Assembly (NCBI GenBank): GCA_021799935.1
Contig: JAJYZM010000062.1
Span: 1-6,487, forward strand
Length of the DNA: 6,487 nucleotides
Direction of reading: 5' to 3'
From: a bacterium
GTDB lineage: Bacteria; SZUA-79; Acidulodesulfobacterales; Acidulodesulfobacteraceae
Below the pieces are notes generated by a model, which had not been told where the DNA came from, made no database searches, and was given only the letters and a program-made list of their open reading frames with translations. Position 1 is the stretch's first letter. Every line of letters begins with the position of its first letter. The position numbers and the translations under genes were made by a program. Shown piece by piece: positions 1-6,487 of the stretch.

Positions 1-143
1 TATTAAATTAAATTTTGTATAAAGAATTTCTATTTCCTTAGTTTTTCTTTTTGAATAAAAGATAAAAAAAAGTATGGACGCAAATATCAATAAGGAACCT
101 GTTAAATAAATCAGATTAACATAGTTCTGCAATATCGCCTGTT
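1..143. other. AT-rich non-coding stretch abutting a truncated gene
   Basis: No credible gene is seen on either strand; the longest ATG reading frame (from 74) runs only 11 codons. The frame of the downstream manC-like gene is open only back to base 120, where a TAA at 117-119 stops it. The residues encoded between 120 and about 140 do not resemble the sequence normally found upstream of the EKPD motif in this family. Family resemblance begins at about 141-150. This suggests a deletion, insertion or rearrangement junction near 135-145. No terminal inverted repeat or transposase remnant is visible. Confidence 0.5.
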
Positions 144-1052
144 TTGTCTTTCAAAGAAAAACCGGATAAAGAAACTGCCGCGAAATATATTTCGGAAAAG
201 AATTTTTACTGGAACAGCGGAATGCTGATGTGCAGACCCGAAATACTGCTTGAGGAGCTTAAGTCTCTGTGTCCCGCAATTTACGAAAATTCAGGGGAGG
301 CTTATAAAAACGCGCCTAAGAACGGCGGCATGATAAGGGTCAAAGAAGCGGATATGCTTAAGATAGAGGAAAATTCCATCGATTTTGCCCTTCTGGAAAA
401 AACAAAATGCGTAAAGGTCGTGGAATCCGATATCGACTGGTCCGACCTTGGAAATTTTGATTCAATTTATAACGAGCTGGAAAAAGACGAAAATAATAAC
501 GCCGTAAATTCAAAAGAAGATATAGTCGGCATTAATTCTAAAAACAATCTTATAATGTCCGGCGGGAAAATGGTTGCCGCTATAGATATAGAAGATTTGA
601 TAATTATCAATACCGACGACGCTATTTTAATTTCTAAGAAAGGTTCTTCGCAGAACGTTAAAAAAGTCGTAGATGAATTAAAAAATAGAAATTCCGAACT
701 GCATACACATCATCTTACCGTACATAGGCCTTGGGGATCATATACCGTTTTGCTCGAATCCGCCCTTTATAAACTTAAAAAGATTTCGGTAAAACCCGGC
801 GCTAAGCTTTCGCTTCAAAAGCACTTTCACAGGTCGGAGCACTGGATAGTAACGAGCGGAACCGCCCTTGTTACCGTCGGCGATAAAGAAACGCTTTTAA
901 GGGCAAACGAATCTACCTATATACCTATGGGTTTCGTCCACAGGCTCGAAAATCCGGGTTTGATACCGCTGGTTATTATAGAAGCGCAGGTGGGGGAATA
1001 CCTTAAAGAAGACGACATAGTCAGGTTTGAAGACGACTACGACAGGCTGTAA
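144..1052 (+). CDS. manC: 5'-truncated mannose-1-phosphate guanylyltransferase / mannose-6-phosphate isomerase (type II PMI)
   Basis: Full-length members (about 450-480 residues) make GDP-mannose precursors for surface polysaccharides: an N-terminal nucleotidyltransferase makes GDP-mannose and a C-terminal cupin isomerises fructose-6-P to mannose-6-P. Only about 302 residues remain here. The nucleotide-binding signature GGxGxRLWPLSR is absent, because the reading frame enters at the family's FxEKPD motif (residues 3-8). Still present are WNSGM (23-27), DWSDLGNF (98-105), RPWGSY (195-200), the cupin metal motif around H227, H229, E232 and H233, H266 in the YIP-GFVHRLEN block (259-270), and the family's typical C-terminal block ending FEDDYDR. 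The start given is a TTG with no ribosome site, so it is a formal start only. The guanylyltransferase should be dead. The isomerase domain looks intact but its expression is doubtful. Family assignment is very secure; its status as a gene or remnant is not. Confidence 0.88.
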   Translation: MSFKEKPDKETAAKYISEKNFYWNSGMLMCRPEILLEELKSLCPAIYENSGEAYKNAPKNGGMIRVKEADMLKIEENSIDFALLEKTKCVKVVESDIDWSDLGNFDSIYNELEKDENNNAVNSKEDIVGINSKNNLIMSGGKMVAAIDIEDLIIINTDDAILISKKGSSQNVKKVVDELKNRNSELHTHHLTVHRPWGSYTVLLESALYKLKKISVKPGAKLSLQKHFHRSEHWIVTSGTALVTVGDKETLLRANESTYIPMGFVHRLENPGLIPLVIIEAQVGEYLKEDDIVRFEDDYDRL

Positions 1053-1064
1053 GCCGCGGCGGAG

Positions 1065-1340
1065 CTATAAATTAAATTCCGATTCGTAAATTTCCAAAGT
1101 ATCCTTCACGCCGTTCAATTTATCGTCCAATTTATACGTTTCGTTGTTATATTCGCAGTATCCTTGAACCAGCAAAGATTCCGCAATTTTTTTATTTTTA
1201 GTTAAAAATATGTGGACTGACAGCGGGTCGCCTATATTGTCGAGAGATATAACCGATGTATTGCCTTTTTCCGCGTTTTTGCTAAAAAATTGGCGCAGTA
1301 ATTCCCCTGTTTGTTTATTTCTAATTCCGTAATAAGTCAT
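1065..1340 (-). CDS. small hypothetical protein (91 aa)
   Basis: I do not recognise a family. The product is soluble-looking, with no signal peptide or membrane segment, and is rich in Asn, Lys and Glu. It opens with a tyrosine-rich MTYYGIRNKQTGE segment that looks like the first beta-hairpin of a small domain. The ATG at 1340-1338 has no clear Shine-Dalgarno sequence, but an extended -10 promoter sits about 40 bases upstream on the minus strand. The gene converges on the manC remnant, with 12 bases between the stop codons, and diverges from the pilus operon across a 406-base control region. It could be an ordinary housekeeping or accessory gene. A link to the pilus is suggested only by the shared intergenic region. 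That it is a real gene is moderately supported by its length, its codon use and its promoter. Confidence 0.55.
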   Translation of the reverse strand: MTYYGIRNKQTGELLRQFFSKNAEKGNTSVISLDNIGDPLSVHIFLTKNKKIAESLLVQGYCEYNNETYKLDDKLNGVKDTLEIYESEFNL

Positions 1341-1380
1341 GAATAGATTTTTAATTATTTTTTTTCATATATATCAATAA

Positions 1381-1389
1381 ATTATAGCA
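1381..1389 (-). promoter_or_regulatory. probable extended -10 promoter for the 91-aa minus-strand gene
   Basis: Read on the minus strand, this is TGCTATAAT: a perfect TATAAT (bases 1386-1381) preceded by the TGn extension. The expected start site is near 1374, giving a leader of about 34 nt before the ATG at 1340. The -35 region is poor, which extended -10 promoters tolerate. The first TGTCAT repeat (1407-1415) lies where the -35 element would be. Confidence 0.45.
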
Positions 1390-1406
1390 TATTTTAAAAC
1401 TGATAT

Positions 1407-1474
1407 ATTGTCATAAAATATCTGCCATTTTGTCATAGTTTTAAAATTAATTTTTTATTTAAAAATATGACAAT
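1407..1474. promoter_or_regulatory. three TGTCAT-type repeats, candidate enhancer-binding sites
   Basis: ATTGTCATA (1407-1415) and its exact reverse complement TATGACAAT (1466-1474) form a 9-base inverted repeat. A third copy, TTGTCATA (1430-1437), lies between them in the same orientation as the first. The first two copies are 22 bases apart, about two helical turns. The group sits roughly 77 to 144 bases upstream of the predicted sigma-54 start site, the usual place for bacterial enhancer-binding protein sites. TGTC-containing sites are, as I recall, a feature of PilR binding at pilin promoters; that this locus uses a PilR-like activator is inference. Confidence 0.5.
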
Positions 1475-1524
1475 CTTCAAATAAATCCTATATTGATTGC
1501 GGTATATAATAAAATTTTATCTAA

Positions 1525-1540
1525 TGGCACATATTTTGCT
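1525..1540 (+). promoter_or_regulatory. sigma-54 (RpoN) -24/-12 promoter of the pilus operon
   Basis: The sequence reads TGGCAC, five bases (ATATT), then TTGCT. This matches the TGGCACn-N4-TTGCW consensus, with the invariant GG and GC doublets at the correct spacing of ten intervening bases. Transcription should start near 1551. It points towards the pilus genes, 206 bases before the first ATG. Sigma-54 control of type IV pilin genes by PilS/PilR systems is established in other bacteria. This is the clearest regulatory site in the window. Confidence 0.8.
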
Positions 1541-1550
1541 CAATCAAATT

Positions 1551-1746
1551 ACAACATAAAAATACCTGATAATTTAAATTATAAATAAGTTATTAGGGTA
1601 ATTAGATAAAAATACGGAGATGTAGATTTTTTGCCGCCCATTTTTTTAATTGTCCCAATTAAAATGGATGCGAAGAATTACGTAATCTACCCGAAAAATT
1701 TACAAGCAATAAGAATGCACGTAAATTTTCGGCGGGAGGGGACTCT
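1551..1746 (+). promoter_or_regulatory. long structured 5' leader of the pilus operon
   Basis: Between the predicted start site and the ATG at 1747 there are about 195 untranslated bases with three potential hairpins. H1 pairs 1565-1572 with 1590-1597 (8 bp, one G-U). H2 is a long imperfect hairpin spanning 1622-1690, with GTAGA/TCTAC at its base, a U-rich helix of 1627-1634 with 1670-1677, and CCATTTT/AAAATGG plus AATTG/CAATT at the top around a TCC loop. H3 pairs 1691-1703 with 1721-1732 (12 bp, one bulged A). H3 ends two bases before the GGAGG ribosome site (1735-1739). CCGCC at 1634-1638 could instead pair with GGCGG at 1731-1735, touching the ribosome site. It does not match the c-di-GMP-I (GEMM) consensus as I know it. 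Function as a riboswitch or RNA thermometer is speculative. Confidence 0.4.
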
Positions 1747-2154
1747 ATGCAGAATCTAAAAAGAATTTTATTTATTTTTGCGATTTTTTTGTGCATTTTT
1801 ACGATAATTTTATCGGATAATGCGGATGCGGCAGGCTATTTAAGAACTTATAAAAAAATTGCGACGACTGTAGGAAAGGCGATAAAAGGCGCTGATGTTG
1901 TCGGCAACGAGTCGCTTCTTCCGACGCTGAATATCCATGCGGACGATATGCCCCTGTGGCAGTGCCTCGAAAAATTAAGCCGCCTTACCCGTTATTATAT
2001 TCGTACAAGAAATGTCCGGCTCGCTAAAAAAGTCTCGATTAATGAAACCGGCAATTTAGCCGCAATACTAGATGCACTTTTTCCCGATTATAAAGTTTAC
2101 GTATATCCCGAAAAAAAAGAAATAAAGGTTGTCAACAATGAATATAATAAATAA
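1747..2154 (+). CDS. exported protein with a secretin N0/STN-like domain (135 aa)
   Basis: Residues 1-28 form a classic Sec signal peptide: a Lys/Arg n-region, a long Ile/Phe/Leu core, and an Ala-Asp-Ala cleavage site before AGYL. No lipobox is convincing. Residues about 58-130 have the beta-alpha-beta-beta-alpha-beta rhythm of the STN/N0 domain found at the start of secretins and TonB-dependent receptors: LNIHADDMPLWQCLEKLSRL, then KKVSINETGNLAAILDALF, then a final KEIKVV strand. It could also be compared with the small secretin-partner domain of TcpQ-type proteins. The ATG has a strong GGAGG seven bases upstream and is the first gene after the sigma-54 promoter. The C-terminus overlaps the next gene by 17 bases, implying translational coupling. 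A periplasmic role helping the secretin or the pilins is inferred. Confidence 0.65.
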   Translation: MQNLKRILFIFAIFLCIFTIILSDNADAAGYLRTYKKIATTVGKAIKGADVVGNESLLPTLNIHADDMPLWQCLEKLSRLTRYYIRTRNVRLAKKVSINETGNLAAILDALFPDYKVYVYPEKKEIKVVNNEYNK

Positions 2155-2719
2155 CAAAGGCTTTACGCTTTTTGAAATAATTATAGCTTTAGCGCTGACC
2201 GCGGTCATAACTGCCGGAGGAATTTATCTTTTAAATTATTACATACAGATTGCAAAGGCGCGGAAGACGGTCGATGAGCTTGTTTATCTAGGTAAGGCGG
2301 AAAATTTATATTATCAGAAAAATACCGGTATTATACAGGAAACCGCATATAATCCCGTAACCGAAGAAAACGGCGTAAATTGTTCTAACGATGTTTATCA
2401 TATATATACGGACAATTTTTCTAGCCTTCAGAGCGACGGCGATTTAACGGAAATAAATTCAAACAATAATCCGTTCGGCAAGCCCTTTACATTTACTCCG
2501 AGTTACGGACAGGTTGCGATGAATAATAACCAGTACTGCGTGAGGTCCGCCGGCATTTTAATAACGACTGAGGTGCCGGAGGCTTATAAAGGCGCGGCGA
2601 GTCTTGTTCCCGGAGCCTCGGTTGTAAACGTTTCCGGCGGCTGGGCTACCGTAGGATTTTTTCAGGCGCGGAAAACAGGCAACGTCGAAATGAAATATAC
2701 TTTAAAGTATAACTGGTAA
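2138..2719 (+). CDS. type IV prepilin / major pseudopilin-like protein (193 aa)
   Basis: The product begins with a short leader MNIINNKG followed by FTLFE and a hydrophobic stretch to about residue 36. This is the standard prepilin signal: Gly at -1, Phe at +1 (N-methylation site) and Glu at +5. The mature protein would be 185 residues. After the alpha1 helix (to about 60) comes a globular head with an NPFGKPFTF segment (111-119), typical of pilin and pseudopilin beta-regions, and two cysteines (C82, C134) that may form a disulfide. The ATG at 2138 is preferred over a TTG at 2129 because AAAGG (2124-2128) lies nine bases upstream and the leader is then normal. It overlaps the preceding gene by 17 bases. 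It most likely forms the fibre, although the copy number of pilins cannot be read from sequence. Confidence 0.88.
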   Translation: MNIINNKGFTLFEIIIALALTAVITAGGIYLLNYYIQIAKARKTVDELVYLGKAENLYYQKNTGIIQETAYNPVTEENGVNCSNDVYHIYTDNFSSLQSDGDLTEINSNNNPFGKPFTFTPSYGQVAMNNNQYCVRSAGILITTEVPEAYKGAASLVPGASVVNVSGGWATVGFFQARKTGNVEMKYTLKYNW

Positions 2720-2730
2720 CGGATGAAGCT

Positions 2731-3834
2731 ATGATTCTTTTAAAAAATAATAACGGGTTTTCCGGGCTTTTCGGCATAATAATCATGCTAATAGTCGTCG
2801 GCATATTGTCTGCCGCCATAATTCCCACGTTTACCGCAAGGATTCAATACAAACAGGCAAAATACGCGGCAGGGGTAATTCAAACCATAGAAAACGCCGA
2901 GAACGCATATATGGCTAAAAACGGGTCTAACTTTGCAAGTCTTCAAACTTTGTCTCAGGACAACTATATATCAAGCGCTTTTCTTAGCTCAGTAAATTGG
3001 GACTATGCTAACGATGTATCGGTAAATATCGCAAATCAAAAGGTTTCTATATGTATCGGCAGCGGTACCGACTGTCCGAATAGCCCGGACGTCGGTGATA
3101 ACGGTTATTTCATAGGCGTATATAATATTCCGCATAATTATCAAACATATATCGAGCATGAACTCCCCGGCAGCGGTTTAATCGGCGCCGACGGCGTAAG
3201 TTTTATAGCTCCTGCACCGATGGCTCCGCCCGTTCCTATAAATTTAACTCCTTCCGGCCAGCCTGTAATTTACGGTCCGGGCAACCAAGCATATGCCGTG
3301 CCTCCGGGAGTAACGGAAATAGAGTGGACGCTGGCAGGCGGCGGCGGAGGAGGAGGCGCTCCCGCATTGCTGAGTCTGTTAGGTCTGCCGATTGCCGGAG
3401 GCAACGGCGGCGGCGGCGGCGGTTCTTCAGCCGTATTTTTAAGCGGTAATATTGCCCCGCTGGCTATCGCTGCAGGCGGCGGCGGCGGAGGAGGCGCAAG
3501 CACCTCAGGATTAGTGGGCGGACCTGGCAGTGCAGGCGGAGGAGGCGCTATTCAGGTTGGCTACATGCCGGTTTTACCGGGAGAAACGCTAACCGCAGAC
3601 ATAGGATATGCGGGGAATGAAAACGGTACGGGTGGCGGCGGTTATTATTCCGGAAGCGCAGGCAGTACCGGGGAATTGCTTTCGGGCGGGAACGGAGGCA
3701 ACGGCGGCGGGTGGAACGCCGCATATTTGTACGGCGGAGCTGGCGGCACAAGCGGCAGTAACGGGGGCAATGCCGTTTCCGAGTACGGGTATAACGACGG
3801 CAACGGATATCTTATAATTCAGCCGATACAATAA
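2731..3834 (+). CDS. prepilin-like protein with C-terminal polyglycine (tail-fibre-tip-like) domain, candidate tip adhesin (367 aa)
   Basis: The leader MILLKNNNG is followed by FSGLFG and a hydrophobic helix to about residue 32, then an amphipathic helix and a pilin-like head (about 40-145) with C108 and C115. The +5 residue is Phe, not Glu, as in initiating or tip pseudopilins such as GspK. A proline-rich hinge (159-173) joins this to residues about 178-367. That part has VPPGVTEIEWTLAGGGGGGG, further glycine runs at 223-231, 249-255, 269-272 and 301-304, many GGNGG motifs, and a closing GNGYLIIQP strand. The layout resembles the glycine-rich domain of phage tail-fibre adhesins (T4-like gp38 family), where glycine strands pack as a polyglycine-II sandwich with variable receptor-binding loops. 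It lies 11 bases after the pilin gene, with GGA at 2721-2723 as a weak ribosome site. Function as a pilus-tip adhesin, analogous to PilV of IncI plasmids, is inferred. Confidence 0.8.
   Translation: MILLKNNNGFSGLFGIIIMLIVVGILSAAIIPTFTARIQYKQAKYAAGVIQTIENAENAYMAKNGSNFASLQTLSQDNYISSAFLSSVNWDYANDVSVNIANQKVSICIGSGTDCPNSPDVGDNGYFIGVYNIPHNYQTYIEHELPGSGLIGADGVSFIAPAPMAPPVPINLTPSGQPVIYGPGNQAYAVPPGVTEIEWTLAGGGGGGGAPALLSLLGLPIAGGNGGGGGGSSAVFLSGNIAPLAIAAGGGGGGGASTSGLVGGPGSAGGGGAIQVGYMPVLPGETLTADIGYAGNENGTGGGGYYSGSAGSTGELLSGGNGGNGGGWNAAYLYGGAGGTSGSNGGNAVSEYGYNDGNGYLIIQPIQ
3334..3549 (+). repeat. three near-identical glycine-codon tracts inside the adhesin gene
   Basis: The pattern GCA-GGC-GGC...GGA-GGA-GGC-GC(T/A) occurs at 3334-3359 and 3472-3498, with a shorter copy at 3532-3549. 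Another run of GGC codons lies at 3406-3423. All are in frame and encode the polyglycine strands. They are imperfect direct repeats made of GGC and GGA triplets, so they could promote in-frame slippage or recombination that swaps or deletes the intervening loops. Confidence 0.6.
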
Positions 3835-3872: not shown

Positions 3873-4961
3873 ATGAATATGCAATTTTTCGACGGATACG
3901 CTAATAAATTTTACGAACTTTCGGGAGAAACTCTTAAGGAGGCAGAAGCCCCGGTTCGGGGCGAGCCGCTTGCCGTACTCCTCGAAACGACAAAAATCAA
4001 GACTTTCCGCTTTGCTAAAAAATCGGTTTTTCAAAAATTTATCAAACAGTATGCAAAAACCAGAGCCGTCTCGGTGTTCGAGAGCGGCGAATACTATGTT
4101 GTATTTTCCGAAGGGTTTAAGGTAATTCAAGCAATCTACGAGCAATTTTCCGTTAATCCCTTCCCTTATCAGGTTTTCTTTTTGAATTACCTGCGAAAAA
4201 AGAAAACCGACGGCACAAGCATTTTTATCGAAATTGCCGAAAGAAGCGTAAGAATTACGACCGTCACGGAGTATATGAACGTGTCTTCCGAAATTGCCAA
4301 CATCCAGTCCGTCAGCGGACTTATACAATCTAAGGTTTCGGGACTTCAAAAACAGGGATTTAAAAAAATTAATTTCTTCGGCTTAAGCAAAGAAGTGCAG
4401 GTTTTAGTACCCGAATCTGAAACCTTATCGTATTCAGAACTGTTTGACCACGGTTCTGCGGACATAGACGAATTTATTTACGAAGAGCCTAAAGAAAAAA
4501 TTAAAGAAGAACAAATCCGTGATTTTAAATTTAATATTGCACTTGTATCTACGGCGTTTTTGTTGTTTATTTTTTCGTTTATAGTTTTTAAAACCCTTAA
4601 AGCGAGGATAATCTCATATAACCGGAACAGGCTGGCGCTTAATGCGCTCAATACGACGCTCGACAAAAAACTAAAATTAGAAACCGGAAAAAGATTCGTA
4701 TATATATTAAGAAAACAGCCCAGGTATGCTTACAGGCTTAAAAATTTACTCGGGCTTTTTCCAAACGGGGCACACGTGAAACAGCTGACGGTTAGCCGCG
4801 GAGGAATAAGCCTTTTAGGCTCTTATAAAGGCGGCTACAGAAATTTTGTCTTAATATTCGACACGCTGGAAACCCGGCTTAAAGGGTCCGGCTACAGAAT
4901 AAAGGTTTTATCGACCGGCAAAGCTAAATTGTATTTTTACATCAGCGGAGGCGGCTACTAA
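3873..4961 (+). CDS. GspL-like / PilM-PilN fusion assembly-platform protein (362 aa)
   Basis: The architecture is a cytoplasmic domain of about 215 residues, one membrane helix (about 221-239, with IALVSTAFLLFIFSFIVF), then a periplasmic domain of about 120 residues. The cytoplasmic part is weakly reminiscent of the actin-like PilM/GspL fold, for example the strand pair around TSIFIEIAERSVRITTVTEY (115-134) and INFFGLSKEV (166-175). I see no intact nucleotide-binding motif. The periplasmic part begins with a likely coiled region (245-275), followed by a PilN/GspL-like ferredoxin-like fold with NLLGLFPNGAHVKQLTV and GGISLLGSYKG. In type IVa pili these are two genes (pilM, pilN); GspL and BfpC are single-chain equivalents. 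The ATG at 3873 lacks a clear ribosome site. A second in-frame ATG lies two codons on. It stands immediately before PilO- and PilP-like genes, which supports the call. Confidence 0.65.
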   Translation: MNMQFFDGYANKFYELSGETLKEAEAPVRGEPLAVLLETTKIKTFRFAKKSVFQKFIKQYAKTRAVSVFESGEYYVVFSEGFKVIQAIYEQFSVNPFPYQVFFLNYLRKKKTDGTSIFIEIAERSVRITTVTEYMNVSSEIANIQSVSGLIQSKVSGLQKQGFKKINFFGLSKEVQVLVPESETLSYSELFDHGSADIDEFIYEEPKEKIKEEQIRDFKFNIALVSTAFLLFIFSFIVFKTLKARIISYNRNRLALNALNTTLDKKLKLETGKRFVYILRKQPRYAYRLKNLLGLFPNGAHVKQLTVSRGGISLLGSYKGGYRNFVLIFDTLETRLKGSGYRIKVLSTGKAKLYFYISGGGY

Positions 4962-4962
4962 A

Positions 4963-5544
4963 ATGAAAAAAACAACGGCAAGACTCGCCGCCGTGCTTTT
5001 GATTATTTTATCGGCGGTATTTTTAATTAAATCGGAACTTATCTGCAAGCAGTATAGAACGGCAAAACATTTAAAAGCCGTTGCGATGCAAAGGAATTTA
5101 ATTCTTAAGCGCAGGATTAAAGCGGTTGAGAAAATAAGCATCCCTAAAACGGTTTTCGGGTATCATAATATAAAAACCTTTCTTCTCACTTTTTTGAGCT
5201 TTTCCGATTACGTTAAATATAAGGGGTTCAATGACAGCGTTTTTATTTATAAAGCCGTCTCCTCTTTAAAGCAGCCTGCGGAGGCTCATACTCCGCATGC
5301 GTTTGTAAAAGTAAAAACCGCCAATATAAACGGGATTCCGGTTTTATCGTCATATATAAGTAATTCAAGGTCTTTTTACGGATTAAAAAAAATATCTTTA
5401 AAATTCGATATTGAAAACTTTCATTCGGCTAACGAAGTTTTAAAAATTATTAGCGACATTCAGAATTTATTCCCGTCAAGAATTAACCTTATTAAGATGA
5501 CCGACAGGGAAGCAGTCATAAATTTTAATATTTACGGAGGATAA
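4963..5544 (+). CDS. PilO/GspM-like inner-membrane assembly protein (193 aa)
   Basis: The protein has one N-terminal membrane helix (about 8-25) after a basic MKKTTAR start. A positively charged, probably coiled segment (30-57) follows, then a periplasmic region ending in a ferredoxin-like unit: LKKISLKFDIENFHSANEVL (141-160), helix to about 170, then INLIKMTDREAVINFNIYG (174-192). This is the size and layout of PilO and GspM, which pair with PilN and GspL through coiled coils and connect the cytoplasmic motor to the secretin. Only one base separates it from the preceding stop codon, and GGAGG (4947-4951) inside the upstream gene is its probable ribosome site, so translation is likely coupled. 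Sequence identity within this family is low, so the call rests on topology and gene order. Confidence 0.6.
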   Translation: MKKTTARLAAVLLIILSAVFLIKSELICKQYRTAKHLKAVAMQRNLILKRRIKAVEKISIPKTVFGYHNIKTFLLTFLSFSDYVKYKGFNDSVFIYKAVSSLKQPAEAHTPHAFVKVKTANINGIPVLSSYISNSRSFYGLKKISLKFDIENFHSANEVLKIISDIQNLFPSRINLIKMTDREAVINFNIYGG

Positions 5545-5546
5545 CC

Positions 5547-6194
5547 ATGGGCTTAGAGGATTTAGATACAACGAACGGCAAGGGGTTAAACGGAGCATCT
5601 CTTGCGCCGGAAGGGCATAAGCCTAAAAGAAACTTGGCCGCCTTTAAAATTAACAAACCGGTTCTTTATGCCGTAGCTTTTTTGATAGTAATAACCGGCG
5701 CGGTTATTCTTTATAAATATGAGTCGCAAAAACCAGAAGCTGAAAAAGTCAGGCAAATGAAAGCCGCCGGATTGCAGGAAACGAAGGTTTATCCCGCACA
5801 AGCTAATTCAACGGCCGCGATAGAAACCTCCGCAAAAGCCGGAAAAGTAAAAAAAGCGAAAAAAAATAAATCGTTGAACGACCTTTTCAGATTAAAAACT
5901 GCAGCTCCGAACGGTTTTTCGACCGGAGTTCCGGTTGCTCCTTATCCGTCGGCGCCTAATTTTAACGGATTACCCCCTATGTTTAGAAATATTAAATCAA
6001 ACCGGAATTACGGCGGAGCGCAGATTGCGGTTGTCGGCGTTTCTAACGGTACAGCGGCGGTTAAATACGGGAATAATTTATTATATTTGAAAAGCGGCTC
6101 GGTTTTCGGCAGATGCACAGTGCTTTCTATAAGCGTAAACAATGTTAAAATTTCGTGCCGCGGGAGAACCAAAGATTACCCTGTTTTATTTTGA
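5547..6194 (+). CDS. PilP/GspC-like pilus assembly protein (215 aa)
   Basis: An N-terminal cytoplasmic tail of about 37 residues precedes one membrane helix (38-56). Next come a charged, low-complexity linker (60-110), a proline-rich stretch (120-145), and a compact C-terminal domain (about 156-212). That domain reads GAQIAVVGVSNGTAAVKYGN, then LKSGSVFGRCTVLSISVNNVKISCRG. It matches the short beta-rich homology region of GspC and PilP, with its 'G-V-x-A-x-V-x-G-x-x-x-V-x-S-I' rhythm, which contacts the secretin N0 domain. C190 and C204 could form a disulfide in the periplasm. True PilP is often a lipoprotein; this protein is instead membrane-anchored, like GspC or the PilP of IncI-type type IVb systems. 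GGAGG (5536-5540) sits six bases before the ATG, and the gap from the previous gene is two bases. Confidence 0.65.
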   Translation: MGLEDLDTTNGKGLNGASLAPEGHKPKRNLAAFKINKPVLYAVAFLIVITGAVILYKYESQKPEAEKVRQMKAAGLQETKVYPAQANSTAAIETSAKAGKVKKAKKNKSLNDLFRLKTAAPNGFSTGVPVAPYPSAPNFNGLPPMFRNIKSNRNYGGAQIAVVGVSNGTAAVKYGNNLLYLKSGSVFGRCTVLSISVNNVKISCRGRTKDYPVLF

Positions 6195-6260: not shown

Positions 6261-6487
6261 ATGAAAAAATTCGGATTATTTTTAACTGTTGTTTTTATCT
6301 TCTTTGTTATGCCGAAGACGGTTCATGCCGTCGTGTATATTAAAGTCTCTCCGCCTTCCCATTCTCCGCGCGTAAGAAAGATAAAACATATACGCCATAT
6401 TCCTTATTTACTGAGACAGAGGGTTGATTTAGCGGGCAAATTAAATACCGTTACGGCTCTAAATCTTCTTATGCGGAGCGTCAGCGG
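6261..6487 (+). CDS. probable secretin (PilQ/GspD-like), N-terminal part only
   Basis: This gene runs off the window edge; 75 full codons are visible. ATG at 6261 has GGAG (6250-6253) seven bases upstream. Residues 1-23 form a Sec signal peptide (MKKFGLFLTVVFIFF core, Val-His-Ala cleavage before VVYIKV). A basic segment SPRVRKIKHIRHIPYLLRQR follows, and then VDLAGKLNTVTALNLLMRSVSG, which resembles the 'strand then helix with ALxLL' beginning of a secretin N0/STN domain. The position directly after PilMN-, PilO- and PilP-like genes is where pilQ stands in classical pil operons. The conserved secretin pore domain would lie outside the window, so the call is mostly from context. A 66-base gap separates it from the previous gene, with no hairpin terminator seen. 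Confidence 0.5.
   Translation, partial: MKKFGLFLTVVFIFFVMPKTVHAVVYIKVSPPSHSPRVRKIKHIRHIPYLLRQRVDLAGKLNTVTALNLLMRSVS

Follow-up and report, generated by a model that had tools for sequence, protein, structure and literature searches.

The closest described parallel to the gene considered here is PilV of the type IVb pili of R64 and TP114, which, with the Rci shufflon, combines a constant N-terminal part with alternative C-terminal segments (PMC9045228, PMC11852207). More generally, modular pilins are widespread, comprising over 1,200 proteins and up to 264 architectures (PMC8179133), so that a module grafted onto a pilin is not in itself new; PilB and PilC of Streptococcus sanguinis, for instance, consist of a pilin module, a short linker and a separate module, and have an argued location at the pilus tip (PMC8179133). 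Here we describe a gene for a modular prepilin in a stretch of 6,487 nucleotides, referred to as the window (contig JAJYZM010000062.1, assembly GCA_021799935.1), from a bacterium of the Acidulodesulfobacterales. Its product has a prepilin-type stalk, a Pro-rich hinge and a glycine-rich C-terminal head. Like PilV, it represents a minor pilin whose N-terminal part is constant and can be joined to different C-terminal segments, and among its relatives headless cassettes are found near the gene with a tyrosine recombinase adjoining; unlike PilV, some heads of the family are glycine-rich and phage-fibre-like, and the window copy lies outside a shufflon. It differs from S. sanguinis PilB and PilC in bearing a glycine-rich head where theirs are vWA or lectin modules, in belonging to a family with many unrelated heads on near-identical stalks and, compared with PilB, in that the family lacks the Glu5 that PilB has (PMC8179133). 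No kinship to PilV was detectable by sequence: the window proteins match neither Pfam (E up to 1) nor NCBIfam models for PilV or shufflons, and tblastn against 72,556 plasmid records yielded nothing at an E threshold of 0.1.

The principal observation is that this family combines a conserved stalk with interchangeable heads. With residues 1-180 as query, 38 of 569 candidate proteins reached E 0.01 or better (256-426 residues long, 48-98% identical), and these, the window protein and five genome loci constitute a set of 44 stalks. There are 179 pairs with stalks at least 90% identical, and their C-terminal identity is below 45% in 147, 45-80% in 23 and at least 80% in 9; the fraction 147/179 is too high, because the protein database was clustered at 90% and pairs alike in both stalk and head were collapsed, but the existence of pairs with like stalks and unlike heads is unaffected. 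L004 and L048, both from genome assemblies, are such a pair, with stalks 94% and heads 29% identical. ANSAG-repeat heads are the most numerous class (22 of the 44), followed by glycine-rich heads (13) and others (9); an earlier note on this DNA had proposed searching for other pilin N-termini joined to glycine-rich domains, and these 13 stalks, the window's included, are of that kind. The C-terminus of P0003 consists largely of Ala/Tyr repeats, without a recognisable head. On the stalk tree, head classes require at least 14 changes (shuffled mean 19.0, with 2 of 200 shuffles as low) and glycine heads require 7 (shuffled 11.5, 1 of 500), four of which are forced by starred branches; heads therefore move, but are partly clustered. 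The window protein, P0001 and L001 form one clade with a glycine head in all three. Near-identical stalks with different heads suggest exchangeable pilus-tip adhesins. The earlier note had envisaged such an adhesin with exchangeable binding loops; exchange holds at the level of whole heads, while tip position and adhesion are what we infer. At E 1e-15 or better the stalk family occurs in 5 of 30 genomes of the order, in one of them (G019) as a 51-residue piece at a contig end, and at E 1e-6 matches are found in 24 of the 30, mostly through a more distant pilin.

We propose, with a probability of roughly 0.6, that the window gene encodes a minor tip pilin with a binding head, that heads are swapped at a paralogous locus of related genomes, and that the window copy is fixed. 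The modular minor pilin would most likely cap a type IV pilus and present its glycine-rich head as a module for binding: the pilin part, with a type IVb-like fold and no Glu5, would sit at the tip, and the Pro-rich hinge would carry a TNF-like beta-sandwich with glycine-rich loops, as on some phage fibres. At the paralogous locus, heads have apparently been swapped with headless cassettes through hinge-coding DNA, probably by the neighbouring tyrosine recombinase in the manner of the PilV shufflon; the window copy sits inside an assembly operon and looks fixed.

Inverted headless segments near the gene, as in the PilV shufflon, are present in the relatives G002 and G003 (decayed in the latter) and, with a presumed orientation, in G005. 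The G002 cassette is cut within its hinge at position 4958 of locus L003, apparently by the end of a Tn7-like element. From that position onward L003 carries the element itself (TnsA and TniQ by Pfam, and a TnsB-like Mu-transposase C domain), which begins with TGT in the cassette hinge; its right end did not turn up within the stretch searched. A VirB4/TraG-like ATPase (PF19044, E 3.7e-18) at L003 134-2044 lies upstream of the two pilin genes, and this copy may therefore reside on a conjugative element. In G003 a single contig (L004) holds the pilin gene and a convergent, decayed cassette fused to a 239-bp segment that matches the 5' part of the G005 recombinase at 98% identity. In G005, which belongs to the same order as G001 (the genome of L001), scaffold C2 terminates in a pilin gene that has a glycine head, and scaffold C4 opens with a headless glycine cassette, which two tyrosine recombinases adjoin (Phage_integrase E 1.6e-28 and 3e-28). 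The arrangement of pilin, inverted cassette and recombinase is thus contiguous, though decayed, in G003 and reconstructed in G005, where the cassette would lie inverted beside its gene. The G005 cassette, itself outside the 44, matches the P0031 head at 95% identity, and the stalks of P0031 and the G005 gene are 84% identical. A perfect 73-bp repeat, compared with 31 bp for the sfx site of the shufflon, is common to the G005 gene and the cassette and codes for the hinge. Single copies of this repeat are present in G002 (94% over 67 bp) and G003 (91% over 56 bp), and no copy in G001 or G019. Rci and its homologues carry an extra C-terminal domain (PMC11852207) that the G005 recombinase lacks, its integrase domain match stopping at residue 322 of 335; its best NCBIfam models are Xer-type, below cut-off. 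P0021 and the recombinase fragment P0060 are on contigs of equal length, 18,865. The wider recombinase family (loci L054-L073 in G001, G002, G003, G005 and G019) has a central block that is near-constant by eye, and several members are near contig ends.

Several observations weigh against recombinase-driven exchange. Recombinase family matches are numerous (6 in G001, 5 in G002, 11 in G003, 7 in G005 and 3 in G019, counts that include fragments of one gene), DNA conservation in the hinge is not in clear excess, and no pair among the 44 has heads at least 80% identical on stalks below 90%, shared heads occurring on similar stalks only. Nothing recognisable lies within 461 bp past the gene at L002, cassette and recombinase are both absent from the window locus, and G001:C9, the contig of its orthologue, has no recombinase match. 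The first three of these speak for an exchange of heads by ordinary homologous recombination, gene conversion or horizontal transfer instead of site-specific inversion, the recombinases being unrelated mobile neighbours, and we regard this as a substantial, if lesser, possibility. Gene conversion occurs at pilE/pilS of Neisseria. Against this alternative, a recombinase of one type adjoins both the headless cassette in G005 and the inverted, decayed cassette in G003, and in G002 an inverted headless cassette follows the gene. We consider it probable that the neighbouring tyrosine recombinase performs the swapping.

Turning to the protein itself, the earlier note was right in its description of a prepilin start, hydrophobic helix, two-Cys head, Pro-rich hinge, glycine runs and closing strand sequence. 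Read from the sequence, the leader is short and ends at G9, followed by F10 and a hydrophobic segment, as in a class III signal; N_methyl matches 6 of 12 glycine-head members weakly (best E 0.039). C108 and C115, the sole Cys of the 367 residues, are invariant columns together with P161, P163 and P166 in two alignments, one of 28 and the other of 21 sequences. Residues 167-367 are 32% Gly, with longest runs of 7, and terminate in GNGYLIIQPIQ. This glycine part is 98% identical in P0001 and 89% in L001, and it is under purifying selection: between window and L001, the stalk has a ratio of nonsynonymous to synonymous substitution rates of 0.18 and the head one of 0.29, so the window head is kept, without sign of rapid diversification. 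Since Cys and hinge Pro are invariant and the glycine part is conserved by selection, the layout of prepilin, hinge and glycine domain is more than chance.

We think it unlikely that the C-terminal glycine-rich part only forms a spacer, disordered or of low complexity, that binds nothing, although two results point that way and so away from a binding head. The glycine stretches have predicted local distance difference test scores (pLDDT) below 50 in both structure models, and the window head scores below cut-off with every family model; the suggested comparison with Pfam glycine-rich domains failed in this respect, Gly_rich_2 (PF21722) scoring 9.8 bits over residues 184-358 against a cut-off of 24.3, a weak likeness in alignment (at E up to 1 the model matches 5 of 12 glycine-head members, best E 0.002). 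Set against a spacer are the alternation of strands with Gly runs in identical order in both models (with eight strands predicted in the window head), a register of non-Gly residues that the window head has in common with P0016 and L048 (z about 7), the purifying selection noted above, and the fold matches of a homologue, P0019, to the Pam3 gp24 fibre, the ALK/LTK glycine-rich domains and Bxb1 gp33. These proteins have a beta-sandwich with glycine-rich loops, which in our case would be borne by a pilin; the TNF-like match was obtained for P0019 only, with low-confidence glycine loops. For the Pam3 fibre, receptor binding has been proposed to take place at the distal ends of the loops (PMC9608196). 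With S16 gp38 the head shares glycine-rich motifs with variable segments between them, but gp38 is a beta-helix with a three-layer polyglycine-II lattice (PMC6851490), and its fold is absent among the matches listed for weak models. The earlier idea of a phage-fibre-like polyglycine adhesin thus survives in part, as a stranded glycine head that, by modelling, probably resembles those of some phage tail fibres, with no gp38 likeness among the matches listed, and polyglycine-II packing in the window protein would be an extrapolation.

The case for a tip position within a pilus draws on two features. Glu at +5 is usual in type IV pilins and missing in some tip pilins, without being strictly defining; it is present in none of the 43 members of the family whose N-terminal region contains a GF motif, the window protein included (the 44th, P0014, has no such motif and is outside this count), a point that the earlier note does not mention. 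Together with the bulky C-terminal module, a feature used elsewhere to argue for tip location (PMC8179133), this absence suggests that the window pilin would be at the tip. A lack of Glu5 also recalls GspK, the tip pseudopilin without Glu5, and the apparatus could be a type II secretion pseudopilus whose GspK-like tip acts on a secreted substrate. The best weak NCBIfam matches of the protein, GspG (residues 9-67, 22.9 bits against a cut-off of 88.85) and ComGC, both far below cut-off, agree with this, as do near-equal ATPase scores in the orthologous locus L001 (PilB 227 bits, GspE 222 bits). Conversely, residues 10-161 can be aligned with pilins of type IVb pili, most of the top fold matches to the pilin part are pilins of pili, and 14 of the 50 matches listed in one fold search are type IV pilins or pseudopilins; that ATPase carries an MshE-type cyclic di-GMP motif (43.4 bits, cut-off 38), and large variable heads fit pilus adhesins (PMC8179133, PMC9045228). 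We consider a pseudopilus improbable, and prefer a type IV pilus. Coordinates are collected in Table 1.

Table 1. Features of the window and of related loci
Feature	Location	Coordinates	Strand	Basis or remark
Putative tip-type modular prepilin with glycine-rich C-terminal domain	Window	2731..3834	+	367-residue open reading frame, ATG start
Prepilin leader, residues 1-9, predicted cleavage G9/F10, no Glu at +5	Window	2731..2757	+	Read from sequence; +5 residue compared in relatives
Pilin module, comprising the alpha1 helix (residues 9-64 in the model) and a small head that includes C108 and C115	Window	2758..3213	+	Alignment, structure model; residues 10-161 fold match to type IVb pilus pilins
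Pro-rich hinge PAPMAPPVP, residues 161-169	Window	3211..3237	+	Beyond hinge, relatives diverge from one another
Glycine-rich head, residues 178-367	Window	3262..3831	+	Eight predicted strands between Gly runs; fold match of homologue; weak Gly_rich_2
Companion minor prepilin, GFTLFE start	Window	2138..2719	+	PF07963 25.8 bits, cut-off 21.2
Operon gene, PilM/N- or MshI-like by position only	Window	3873..4961	+	No Pfam family above cut-off; gene order
Operon gene, PilO/MshJ-like by position only	Window	4963..5544	+	No Pfam family above cut-off; gene order
Operon gene, PilP/MshK-like by position only	Window	5547..6194	+	No Pfam family above cut-off; gene order
Secretin N-terminus, cut by window end	Window	6261..6487	+	Orthologue L001:8233-9783 matches Secretin PF00263, E 1.1e-30
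Headless ANSAG-type cassette	G002 (L003)	about 4596-4955	-	Opposite strand, after pilin stop
Headless glycine cassette	G005 (L049)	1-666	-	Start of scaffold C4
Tyrosine recombinase	G005 (L049)	996-2003	-	Phage_integrase E 1.6e-28, adjoins cassette

The companion prepilin is directly upstream of the tip pilin in the six complete loci compared (window, L001, L002, L003, L004 and L048). L001, from the metagenome-assembled genome YF1.bin133, has a best segment 92% identical to the window, and its operon continues beyond the window's end with the secretin, another prepilin, a PilB/GspE-type ATPase and a PilC/GspF protein (the PilB, GspE and GspF matches score below those models' cut-offs). Within L001 10422-14138, two genes on from the ATPase, is a gene whose product has, by eye, a GGDEF-like motif, and this, with the MshE-type motif of the ATPase, suggests from sequence that the L001 pilus is under cyclic di-GMP control. 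At the other end, positions 1-1052 of the window hold a mannose-1-phosphate guanylyltransferase gene whose 5' part is missing; only from base 131 onward does the window resemble L001, and the window start may therefore be a rearrangement or an assembly edge.

The earlier note regarded this gene as a candidate for a previously undescribed device. Our literature searches found no published glycine-rich head on a pilin, but modular pilins are already known, and so is the stalk and head design, from PilV. Our fuller interpretation, offered tentatively though we find it quite possible, is that in acid-mine Ca. Acidulodesulfobacterales a pilus-tip system without detectable PilV kinship swaps whole adhesin heads, phage-fibre-like TNF/polyglycine ones included, by recombinase-driven inversion at a hinge-coding repeat, with the window version locked in its pilus operon. 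If so, the combination of a constant stalk with an exchangeable head, as seen in conjugative PilV pili, would also exist in a family of environmental acidophiles without detectable PilV homology, and pili and phage fibres would use a similar glycine-rich head. The window family is then a testable case of what a pilus binds and of how its specificity is switched.
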